This document shows, one piece after another, positions 21,418 to 24,285 of a stretch of 27,691 nt of DNA (its first letter is position 1; each line of letters begins with the position of its first letter). The stretch comes from a virus. The notes below the pieces were generated by a model. It was not told the origin of the DNA and did no database searches. It was given only the letters and a program-made list of their open reading frames with translations. The position numbers and the translations under genes are program-made. The stretch spans positions 1 through 27,691 of the IMG/VR virus record IMGVR_UViG_3300025131_000322; one strand, written 5' to 3'.

Positions 21418-22197
21418 ATGGGTATCAATTTAGATAAGATGAGAGAGAAGCTCTCGTCACTACGCGGAGAAGGAAACTCCTCAAATGACACATTCTGGCG
21501 CCCCGAAGACGGGGAACAGACTATTCGAATCGTTCCGACAGCGGACGGAGACCCCTTCAAGGAAATGTGGTTTCACTACAATGTCGAAAAGGGCGGCTTC
21601 CTATGTCCCAAGCGCAACTACAGTGACGAGTGTCCTGTGTGTGAGTTCGCCTCACAGTTGTGGCGCGAAGGCGCAGACAACAACGATGAGCACAGTAAGA
21701 AGGTCGCAAAGTCCCTCTTCGTGCGGCAGCGTTTCTTCAGTCCTGTGATGGTTCGCGGGGAAGAAGAGAGAGGCGTACGCATATGGGGCTATGGCAAGAC
21801 TGCCTACGAGAATCTTTTGACTCTCGTGCTCAACCCAGAGTATGGTGATATCACCGATACAGAGACAGGCACCGACCTGCAGATGACCTACGGGAAGCCG
21901 CCAGGGGCTTCCTTCCCACAGACGAAACTTGTACCTCGACGTCGGTCATCCCCGCTTTGCGAGGACCTGACCCCCGAGAAGTGCGCTGAACTTCTTGATG
22001 CTATCCCCGATTTTGGGGGGCTGTTTGATAGAAAGTCGACTGCTGATGTACAAACAATTCTTGATAATTTCGTCAACTCTCAGGTTGATGATCCCGAGAG
22101 CGTAAGTAGTGAGACTACACGTTATGGGACTTCGGCGTCTACCGACACCGAAACGAATGCTGTTGATGCCGCTTTCGCAGAGCTTGGCGCTCTCTAA
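21418..22197 (+). CDS. Single-stranded DNA-binding protein, gp32-like
   Basis: The protein coats single-stranded DNA during replication and recombination and works with UvsX and the helicase. A zinc site of the gp32 type is visible: H53, C63, C72 and C75 (FHYN...FLCPK...ECPVC), the same His-Cys-Cys-Cys order as T4 gp32. The N-terminal basic segment (LDKMREKLSSLRG) suits the cooperative-binding domain, and FWRPEDGEQTIRIVP begins the OB-type core. The C-terminal 40 residues are Ser/Thr/Asp/Glu-rich and end in a short acidic helix, as expected for the protein-interaction tail. At 259 aa it is slightly shorter than T4 gp32 (301). A strong ribosome site aaggag precedes the ATG. Confidence 0.88.
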   Translation: MGINLDKMREKLSSLRGEGNSSNDTFWRPEDGEQTIRIVPTADGDPFKEMWFHYNVEKGGFLCPKRNYSDECPVCEFASQLWREGADNNDEHSKKVAKSLFVRQRFFSPVMVRGEEERGVRIWGYGKTAYENLLTLVLNPEYGDITDTETGTDLQMTYGKPPGASFPQTKLVPRRRSSPLCEDLTPEKCAELLDAIPDFGGLFDRKSTADVQTILDNFVNSQVDDPESVSSETTRYGTSASTDTETNAVDAAFAELGAL

Positions 22198-22204
22198 TAA
22201 TCCC

Positions 22205-22240
22205 CCCCACAGGGAGGCACAGGGTTATCAGGTGTCTCAT
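22205..22240 (+). repeat. Repeated hairpin element, copy 1 (before the H1-like gene)
   Basis: A stem is formed by GAGGCAC (22214-22220) and GTGTCTC (22232-22238), with one G-T pair and an 11-base loop AGGGTTATCAG. The left flank is CCACAGG. A second copy lies at 22459-22488 before the next gene. Both copies sit between a stop codon and the Shine-Dalgarno sequence of the following small gene. The 5' arm contains a ggagg sequence that the stem would hide. No T run follows, so this is not a standard terminator. Confidence 0.6.
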
Positions 22241-22257
22241 ATTAGAAAGGAAGGGTT

Positions 22258-22446
22258 ATGACTACTGAAACGAACCGACTTGAGGAGCTTATTACACTGC
22301 TTGAGAATACTCGCGCAGATCATGAAAAGTTCTTTGTCCGCGGCAATAATGCTGCCGGCACGAGGATTCGCAAAGCAATGCAAGAAGTAAAGACATTAGC
22401 TCAGGAACTGCGGACCGACGTCCAAGAGACAAAAAACGCAAACTAA
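22258..22446 (+). CDS. Histone H1-like (Hc1 family) small DNA-binding protein
   Basis: The 62-aa product matches the short Hc1-type histone H1-like proteins found in several bacterial groups. The key segment is RGNNAAGTRIRKAMQEVKTL (residues 28-47) followed by AQELRTDVQETK. In the family, 'kGNkAAGtRxRKxmQelkxlaqelRxevqelk' is the conserved pattern. The N-terminus (LEELITLLENTRADHEKFFV) also fits. The long Lys/Ala-rich tail of chlamydial Hc1 is missing, as in other short members. The protein could bind or organise phage or host DNA, which is inference. A strong ribosome site (aaggaaggg) precedes the ATG. A repeated hairpin element lies upstream. Confidence 0.72.
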   Translation: MTTETNRLEELITLLENTRADHEKFFVRGNNAAGTRIRKAMQEVKTLAQELRTDVQETKNAN

Positions 22447-22458
22447 ACCTGGACAAGC

Positions 22459-22488
22459 CACAGGGAGGCATGGGCTACAGATGTCTCA
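22459..22488 (+). repeat. Repeated hairpin element, copy 2 (before the 163-aa gene)
   Basis: A stem is formed by GAGGCAT (22465-22471) and ATGTCTC (22481-22487) around the 9-base loop GGGCTACAG. Compared with copy 1, the last C-G pair of the stem is replaced by T-A, so both partners changed while pairing was kept. The flank CCACAGG and the loop bases GGG..TA..CAG are conserved. An ATG at 22470 lies inside the hairpin and would start the downstream frame 15 codons earlier, but it is poorly placed for ribosome access. Confidence 0.6.
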
Positions 22489-22514
22489 CATTTATCAAAA
22501 GGAAAGAGTATAAA

Positions 22515-23006
22515 ATGGGAAGTATTATAGAAACACTTCAGGAACTTAATGTGAGCGATGAGGATTTTGTTTATTTGAATTATACGGATACTGCTAGCGT
22601 ATGGCACATTGCGGATGACCATATTGAGACAGCGCTGGCGGAGACTAATACGGCAGAAATGCTGGCGAGGTTGCTGGCGTGCCCCGCTAAAGTTACGGTG
22701 CTGTCGCGCTATGATGAAGACATTTTAAGTTACATGCGCGCCGAGGGAATGCTAGAGGATTACGATCGAGAAGGGGGGTTCGAAGAATACCTGACCGAGA
22801 AGATTCAGGAAGAGGCATACCAATACGATTTGTTAACGATCTCTACGGAGCGGCATGACCATAAACGCGGAACCTGTGAGGTTGCATCCAACGTTAAGGT
22901 CCTCGCCGGGGAACTCTATCAGATGGGAGACCGCCTCGCGGATGCGTTTGTGAGCGCCTTTGACGTCGTGGTACAAACGCAGAATGGAACGCTTACGCTA
23001 TCGTAG
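22515..23006 (+). CDS. Hypothetical protein between SSB and UvsX (163 aa)
   Basis: I do not recognise this protein. It is acidic, mainly helical, and has no membrane segment or signal peptide. Notable segments are MGSIIETLQELNVSDEDFVY, SVWHIADDHIETALAE, MLARLLACPAKVTVLSRYDE and a C-terminal amphipathic helix LYQMGDRLADAFVSAFDVVV. The chosen start has a clear ribosome site (aaaggaaagag) and lies after the second hairpin element. An in-frame ATG at 22470 would add 15 residues but lies inside the hairpin. It shares its upstream element with the H1-like gene, so the two may be regulated together. Function unknown. Confidence 0.7.
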   Translation: MGSIIETLQELNVSDEDFVYLNYTDTASVWHIADDHIETALAETNTAEMLARLLACPAKVTVLSRYDEDILSYMRAEGMLEDYDREGGFEEYLTEKIQEEAYQYDLLTISTERHDHKRGTCEVASNVKVLAGELYQMGDRLADAFVSAFDVVVQTQNGTLTLS

Positions 23007-23015
23007 GCGAAGACG

Positions 23016-23177
23016 ATGTGGGCTTGTATGGTGGGGTGCGCATGCTTCTTCGTAGTATTTATGATTATGGACACGCGCCGCGAGATAAGAGAGATTGGTG
23101 AACAGGTGAGCATGCTGCAGCAAGACTTTATATCAGAGATTAACGATCGCTATGGAGATCTCCGTGGCAAAGAGTAA
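23016..23177 (+). CDS. Small predicted membrane protein (53 aa)
   Basis: This short frame begins with MWACMVGCACFFVVFMIM, a continuous hydrophobic stretch long enough for one membrane helix, then DTRREIREIGEQVSMLQQDF, an amphipathic helix suited to a short coiled coil, and ends in RYGDLRGKE. The frame starts 9 bases after the previous stop and overlaps the start of the UvsX gene by up to 26 bases, as is common for real phage genes. The Shine-Dalgarno sequence is weak (gcgaag). Function unknown; a small anchor or scaffold protein is possible. Support comes from the bipartite protein pattern and from filling the only gap in this block. Confidence 0.5.
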   Translation: MWACMVGCACFFVVFMIMDTRREIREIGEQVSMLQQDFISEINDRYGDLRGKE

Positions 23178-24285
23178 ATCAAAAGCGGGGAAAGTTTCGA
23201 TCGACGGGCTTCGCACCCTCATTAATAAAACATCCGGACTCGAAGTTGCCCACAACTTAAACCAAGCAAATCCCACAGAAGTAAAAGAATGGATTCCTAC
23301 GGGTTCACGCTGGTTGGACTCTATTGTTTGTAGGGGGCAGCTTGCTGGTATTCCTGTGGGTAAATTCACGGAGATTGCTGGCCTGGAATCAACCGGCAAA
23401 TCTTTTATGGCCGCACAGGCGGCAGGGAATGCCCAGAAGATGGGGATGAATGTTATCTATATGGATTCTGAATCGGCGATTGACCCCGGCTTCCTTGAAC
23501 GCGCTGGGTGTGATATAAACGAACTTATCTATGTTCAGGCACAGTCGGTTGAACATGTACTAGAAACTGTTGAAAACGTTTTGAAGTCAGGAGCAGAAAG
23601 AACCCTGTTCATCTGGGATTCCTTGGCCATGACTCCAACTATCACAGATGTGGAGGGGGACTTCAATCCTCAGTCCACGATGGCAATGAAGGCGCGCATC
23701 CTCTCCAAGGGGATGTCTAAACTAACCATCCCGATTGCAAATACCAAGTCAGCCTTCCTGGTTCTCAACCAGTTGAAGACCAACATCCCCCAAGGACCAA
23801 ATGCTCGCATCGTCGCAATGACGACCCCCTTCATCACCCCCGGCGGGAAAGCCATGCACTATGTATATTCACTGCGCGTGTGGCTTACGGGACGCAAGGC
23901 CAAGTCTGCTTTCATCGAAGACGAGAGCGGCTTCCGCATCGGCTCGGAGGTGAAGGTCAAACTTGAGAAGTCTCGTTTCGGCACACAGGGGCGCAACTGC
24001 GCCTTTAAGATTCTCTGGGGTACCGACGAGGTTGGTATCCAAGATGCCGAGAGCTGGCTGGAAGCAATCAAGGGCTCCGACAATCTTAAACAAGCAGGCG
24101 CCTGGTTCTCCCTGGTCCATAAGGATGGTAAAGAAGAGAAGTTCCAGACTGCCCATTGGATTGAAAAGCTTAAAGACAAGAAGTTCAAGAACCGAGTGTT
24201 CGAGATTATGGATGAAGAGATCATTCGTAAGTTTGACACGCGCGAGGGCAGCGCTGAGGATTTCTACGACGTAGATAAAGAATAG
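23152..24285 (+). CDS. UvsX/RecA-like recombinase
   Basis: The ATP-dependent recombinase forms filaments on single-stranded DNA and drives strand exchange for recombination-dependent replication and repair. Walker A is GLESTGKS (77-84), Walker B is LFIWD (152-156), and a catalytic acidic site is in DSESAID (105-111). NQLKTNIPQG and the following segment FITPGGKAMHYVYSLRVWL correspond to the RecA loop 2 region. At 377 aa it is close to T4 UvsX (391). An alternative start, GTG at 23164 (giving MAKSKSKAG...), has a better ribosome site (ggag at 23154-23157, spacing 6) than the ATG at 23152 and may be the true one. It partners with the gp32-like SSB upstream. Confidence 0.9.
   Translation: MEISVAKSKSKAGKVSIDGLRTLINKTSGLEVAHNLNQANPTEVKEWIPTGSRWLDSIVCRGQLAGIPVGKFTEIAGLESTGKSFMAAQAAGNAQKMGMNVIYMDSESAIDPGFLERAGCDINELIYVQAQSVEHVLETVENVLKSGAERTLFIWDSLAMTPTITDVEGDFNPQSTMAMKARILSKGMSKLTIPIANTKSAFLVLNQLKTNIPQGPNARIVAMTTPFITPGGKAMHYVYSLRVWLTGRKAKSAFIEDESGFRIGSEVKVKLEKSRFGTQGRNCAFKILWGTDEVGIQDAESWLEAIKGSDNLKQAGAWFSLVHKDGKEEKFQTAHWIEKLKDKKFKNRVFEIMDEEIIRKFDTREGSAEDFYDVDKE

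Follow-up and report, generated by a model that had tools for sequence, protein, structure and literature searches.

A predicted RNA pseudoknot family directly behind ssb genes of uncultured marine phages, with a possible role at the 3' end of the ssb message

Behind ssb, the gene for a gp32-like single-strand DNA-binding protein, the phage DNA analyzed here carries the first of two copies of a short element that is predicted to fold as an H-type RNA pseudoknot, composed of a 3-bp helix of the form CC(C/R)/(Y)GG(G) (S1) and a 7-bp helix (S2). Comparison with relatives supports this fold and indicates a structured RNA class, well supported and absent from Rfam, for a large group of uncultured marine phages. 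To judge from its placement, the most likely target of the element is the 3' end of the messages upstream of it and not the genes that follow. The favored explanation, to which a probability of roughly 0.45 is given, is that it serves as a 3'-UTR or intercistronic pseudoknot protecting the 3' end of the mRNA of ssb (and of a histone H1-like gene).

The window, meaning the whole stretch of 27,691 nucleotides that was analyzed, comes from the genome of a myovirus-like phage, as indicated by genes for a major head protein, a tail sheath and a DnaB-like helicase. On its plus strand are found, in order, ssb (21418..22197; PHROG 1192, E=1e-21; Pfam gp32, E=2.5e-14), copy 1 of the element (22205..22239), a gene for a 62-aa histone H1-like protein (22258..22446; Pfam PF07432 (Hc1), E=1e-19), copy 2 (22456..22488), a gene for a 163-aa protein that matches no family and is conserved in relatives (22515..23006), and the gene for the UvsX/RecA-like recombinase that closes the interval (23152..24285; PHROG 97, E=1e-54); a short ORF also lies within the interval. 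An H1-like protein of the Hc1 family is unexpected beside a phage ssb. The ssb-uvsX interval (22198-23151 in the window) is an insertion hot spot for genes in the window and in relatives, with cargo that includes H1-like, FKBP-type isomerase, DGQHR-domain-like, GHKL ATPase-like, lipoprotein, DNA methyltransferase-like and tRNA genes.

Copy 1 belongs to a class with an A inserted before the loop GGG (the A-insert class), and its first CC is 9 nt past the ssb stop codon. The 5' strand of S1, CCC (22206..22208), is predicted from covariation within this class to pair with GGG in the hairpin loop (22222..22224), and comparison of the S2 helix assigns GAGGCAC (22214..22220) and GTGTCTC (22232..22238) as its arms. 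Copy 2 belongs to the non-insert class, and its CC is 11 nt past the stop codon of the H1-like gene; the 5' strand of S1, CCA (22458..22460), has TGG (22471..22473) as its partner predicted from R-Y coupling, and the arms of S2 are assigned in the same manner to GAGGCAT (22465..22471) and ATGTCTC (22481..22487). Each copy is a 7-bp hairpin, with a loop of 11 nt in copy 1 (AGGGTTATCAG) and 9 nt in copy 2 (GGGCTACAG). As the original prediction had it, CCACAGGGAGGCA and TGTCTCA are common to both copies and pairing is kept at the seventh stem pair, which is C22220-G22232 in copy 1 and T22471-A22481 in copy 2; the letters of GGG..TA..CAG, which it also gave as shared, are right, but their spacing differs by 2 nt. 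No direct repeat in the 3 kb examined is longer than the one formed by the copies (22207-22240 and 22458-22491). A calibrated covariance model (R1) has exactly two strong matches in the window, copy 1 with 55.4 bits (E=4e-14) and copy 2 with 48.6 bits (E=3e-12), both of which resemble sequences used in building the model; the next best match has 10 bits. By minimum free energy alone both leader regions of the window are unremarkable, and the evidence for the element comes instead from comparison among relatives.

The S2 helix was compared in 101 distinct copies, a set collected by requiring pairing and therefore with an inflated pairing percentage. Double changes occur at four pairs (types G-C/A-U, A-U/G-C, A-U/C-G and C-G/U-A) and fill 72 cells, a number reached in 0 of 500 shuffles, so that covariation extends beyond the two copies of the window. 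In an unbiased test, for which copies were picked solely by the lead CCRC(A/G)G after ssb, all seven pairs form in 171 of 181 copies, compared to 50% when arms are swapped between copies. The S1 helix, in which the 5' CC pairs with GG of the loop, divides the copies into the two classes. The base ahead of CC is C in 31 of 33 copies of the A-insert class versus 20 of 68 copies of the non-insert class (p=3e-10, ignoring shared ancestry), and departures from C in the A-insert class are mostly compensated: the combinations are CCC/GGG (23 copies), ACC/GGT (2), TCC/GGA (1), TCC/GGG (2) and ACC/GGG (1). In the non-insert class, the R of CCR is coupled to the Y before GG as G-C, G-U or A-U (CCG/CGG, CCG/TGG and CCA/TGG; p=7e-5, with the same disregard of ancestry). 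Class-dependent coupling and compensatory changes in S1 thus point to an H-type pseudoknot with its register shifted by one where the A is inserted. In the non-insert class a base triple is suggested, since Y, the S1 partner of R, also varies in concert with the base that it faces in S2. CAGG is invariant and loop positions are near-invariant, and copies behind the H1-like gene are of the non-insert class in 42 of 43 cases. Two loci (L184, 3415-3467; L185, 3405-3463) have an additional hairpin within the loop, after GGG, which is compatible with the predicted fold because the loop of a pseudoknot would permit such an insertion. Selection for RNA structure, originally proposed from the single compensated pair, is borne out by hundreds of relatives, by strong covariation and by the additional pseudoknot helix, and recent duplication does not explain the copies of the window, which are of different subclasses.

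The element is widespread, and pattern scans together with protein-guided sampling give at least 359 copies in IMG/VR. An exact pattern scan of IMG/VR identified 57 contigs, and the loop consensus is present in nearly all of them; a similar pattern has 27 matches in 257 Gb of prokaryote genomes, all without the loop, which for the exact pattern used are judged to be chance. Among cultured phages (a collection of 50,697 records) no copy was found, and the element is absent from Microcystis phage Mel-JY01, the isolate with the nearest SSB and UvsX proteins. Where loci were sampled by SSB and UvsX protein, independently of the motif, the element directly follows the ssb stop codon in most. It is present in 104 of 126 distinct ssb-uvsX intervals, a share somewhat inflated by inclusion of pattern-found loci, always in the coding sense and often in two to four copies. 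Contigs of up to 222 kb have one to four copies, nearly all at the ssb-uvsX interval and on the coding strand, not the many dispersed intergenic copies per genome of a REP element. Weak partial matches to the covariance model, of 23-27 bits and far from the main locus, in three contigs (G021:115427-115456, G035:177293-177322 and G038:161658-161687) are possibly diverged copies elsewhere in the genome. The element is preceded by an AAA (MoxR-like) ATPase gene in three contigs (L017, L049 and L419) and in two of these is followed by a DUF2201 VWA gene; identification of the downstream gene of L017 and L049 as uvsX was rejected on the basis of Pfam, which gives the DUF2201 VWA protein. In one contig the element stands before a clpP-like gene. 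In these four contigs (G001, G005, G013 and G032), one of them 222 kb long and all possibly incomplete, no SSB of the gp32-like family was found.

The position of the element is fixed with respect to the preceding gene. The first conserved C is 6-13 nt past the upstream stop codon in most copies (median 10), a spacing that holds in 33 of 42 upstream gene families among the matches listed, while the distance to the next start codon is from about 20 to more than 150 nt (middle half, 20-33 nt). At least 209 copies are directly preceded by ssb and others by many inserted small genes; among the matches listed no copy is located before ssb or after uvsX, and the ssb leader of the window has no match to the covariance model. 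The element is followed by uvsX, by H1-like genes, by genes that, reading the sequences by eye, we take to encode FKBP, lipoproteins, DGQHR and GHKL proteins, by tRNA genes (tRNA-Glu or tRNA-Met in L010, L159 and L427), or by promoters. A sigma-70-like promoter-like site (TTGACA-17-TATGAT) comes after the element in L009 and L051/L055, and 10/12 promoter-like sites are found behind 9 of 109 copies that have at least 45 nt to the next start, compared to 3% in shuffles. In L392 and L402, ssb is followed in turn by the element, a canonical terminator (GCCCCTTCGGGGGC-ATTTTT), a promoter-like site and uvsX; the element there can belong only to the 3' UTR of ssb. The original assignment of both copies to the leaders of small genes is not supported, given the tight spacing to the upstream stop, the loose spacing to the downstream start and the tRNA genes, promoters or terminator plus promoter that may come next. 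Nor does the element appear to hide a GGAGG ribosome site, as had been suggested: GGAGG is about 40-50 nt before the start codons, too far for a Shine-Dalgarno sequence; an AAGGA-type site is present separately, outside the element; and GGAGG loses its A in copies with a changed partner (A-U to G-C). Tight stop spacing, loose start spacing, the presence of terminators at the same site in some relatives and the terminator plus promoter before uvsX together argue for action on the preceding gene.

Given the size of the ribosome footprint, the element would start just outside the area covered by a ribosome terminating at the upstream stop codon, and the pseudoknot could remain folded during translation of the upstream gene. 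If the transcript is cleaved or terminated further downstream, the pseudoknot would become a stable 3' end that would stop 3'-5' exonucleases, and the message of ssb (and of the H1-like gene) would then outlive the genes behind it, with a presumed effect on ssb dosage. An RNA-processing site, one of the roles originally proposed, is possible as a part of such a 3'-end mechanism. SSB is required in stoichiometric amounts. The most stable message of phage T4 is gene 32 mRNA (PMC3014915). Protection of upstream operon mRNA by intergenic 3' structures is established in E. coli, where the structure at malE-malF, once cleavage has occurred, halts 3'-5' exonucleases and increases the yield of the upstream product (PMC5927463). 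The malE-malF analogue, the stoichiometric need for SSB and the stability of T4 gene 32 mRNA are the reasons for which a 3'-end-protecting pseudoknot is favored. Against a barrier to decay it counts that a U tract behind about a third of the copies fits termination too, that the class of the element correlates with the downstream gene about as well as with the upstream gene, and that four contigs have the element away from ssb, beside the AAA ATPase/VWA or clpP-like genes. Conservation of CAGG and of the loop TA..CAG beyond what a plain barrier would need hints at a specific partner or a tertiary fold.

Pseudoknots of this family, pseudoknots of a second family and intrinsic terminators interchange behind ssb. 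Where the element is missing (22 intervals), the region behind ssb holds a canonical terminator or a hairpin resembling one in 7 cases and a second pseudoknot of unrelated sequence and the same layout in about 11, and it leaves no room in at least 2. The second pseudoknot, CCG-[AC]T-GGCAGAC-CGG-loop-GTCTGCC followed by a U-rich tail, is located behind ssb in L231, L238, L239, L245, L253, L258, L262, L263, L161 and L169, in the last two of which it is near a copy of the first family. Its 7-bp helix has double changes at five pairs (0 of 500 shuffles), a count biased by the requirement for the fold in finding the members, and its CCG/CGG helix is invariant. Each contig has it in a single cluster of one to four copies, at the ssb-uvsX interval. 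In L176 a long inverted repeat (AACCAGCGCTCAA...TTGAGCGCTGGTT) is behind ssb, where the element would be. A broader proposal, which is tentative and on balance doubtful, is that marine myovirus-like phages have evolved, at one and the same place behind ssb, at least two families of H-type pseudoknots, unrelated in sequence, that would be bacterial analogues of exonuclease-resistant RNAs. Folded at the front edge of a ribosome terminating there, they would block 3'-5' decay and in this way set the dosage of SSB over recombinase.

The terminators in place of the element in 7 relatives and the U tracts that end the analogous second-family pseudoknots are also expected of a pseudoknot-type attenuator or partial terminator, in which the fold and a weak U tract would stop some polymerases and yield more ssb than uvsX message. 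TTTT is present within 14 nt behind the element in 115 of 301 distinct tails versus 20 of 284 in the next stretch, and U makes up 63-69% at positions 5-6 behind the stem. However, most copies, including both copies of the window, have no U run, TTTT is found in 0 of 33 copies before the H1-like gene, the element would be redundant in L392 and L402 with a complete terminator after it, and a terminator scan did not flag it, so that attenuation is considered unlikely. Slightly less probable again is a translational operator, in which a phage protein (the gp32-like SSB or another) would bind the pseudoknot and a G-poor stretch and block initiation of the next gene. In its favor, about 10 nt behind the element are nearly without G, in many copies a ribosome site is about 10-20 nt behind it, and the topology is that of the T4 gene 32 operator pseudoknot, beside a gp32-like gene (PMC535899); but it is the upstream stop and not the start to which spacing is fixed, some phages have tRNA genes, promoters or a terminator next, no copy is ahead of ssb among the matches listed, and the four contigs without the gp32-like family, fragments or not, have the element nonetheless.

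Occurrence in phages without that SSB family would also allow the partner to be a host molecule, and a pseudoknot so small and so highly conserved, with CAGG invariant and loop positions nearly so, could be a riboswitch-like or host-protein switch, its loop and tail binding a small molecule or host factor; this is improbable, given that the downstream genes have no pathway in common, that neither an alternative fold nor an expression platform was seen, and that the exact pattern found no loop-bearing copy in prokaryote genomes. Marginally more improbable still is a boundary of cassettes at the DNA level, with the repeat as a recombination or homing site for gene entry: intervals with more inserted genes have more copies, up to four, and the cargo is very diverse, but RNA is indicated by the compensation seen in both helices, copies of different class coexist in the one genome of the window, and the element contains no promoter. 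Copies may well recombine with each other as a side effect. Sites for RegB (GGAG) or CsrA (GGA) were rejected, as column 11 varies between A and G with its partner and the variants CAGGAAGGC and CAGGTAGGC exist. The 8-9 nt spacing had raised the idea of stop-codon readthrough or frameshifting, which was rejected as well: in the window a second stop follows the first at once (TAATAA), and by eye no conserved frame is found behind the ssb stop.

No family of Rfam 15 reaches its gathering score in the window, a permissive scan of 22150-22560 gave only chance hits to eukaryotic families, and a literature search, largely outside subscription journals, found no description of the motif. The RNA family is new; its kind, the cis-acting pseudoknot or 3' mRNA structure, is already known. 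If the role at the 3' end is correct, the element would be a portable RNA part by which the replication and recombination proteins of one operon are made in different amounts, and control at the 3' ends of phage mRNA would be directly testable with a 35-nt RNA. The PeSL (promoter early stem-loop) cassettes of T4-type phages are units of an early promoter and a stem-loop, repeated in intergenic positions between variable small genes; in contrast, the element has no promoter inside it and has RNA covariation and a fixed place behind stop codons. Like an intrinsic terminator, it is structured and rich in G+C and comes after the last gene of a unit, at a site where relatives have terminators; unlike one, it is a predicted pseudoknot, mostly without a U tract (neither copy of the window is a G+C-rich hairpin with a U tract directly after it), and a real terminator can follow. 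With the operator of T4 gene 32 it shares an H-type pseudoknot, here predicted from covariation in two helices, at a gp32-type ssb with a G-poor stretch after it; the T4 operator is 5' of gene 32, in the leader, and binding spreads over the start site (PMC535899, PMC3014915), whereas the element is 3' of ssb, is unrelated in sequence and is found also in phages without the gp32-like SSB family. The element differs from the barriers of malE-malF (E. coli) and puf in that it is a putative H-type pseudoknot of strongly conserved sequence, in phages and at one locus; like them, it would be a stable RNA fold within an operon, placed immediately after the stop codon of a gene needed in excess (PMC5927463), at 6-13 nt in most copies.
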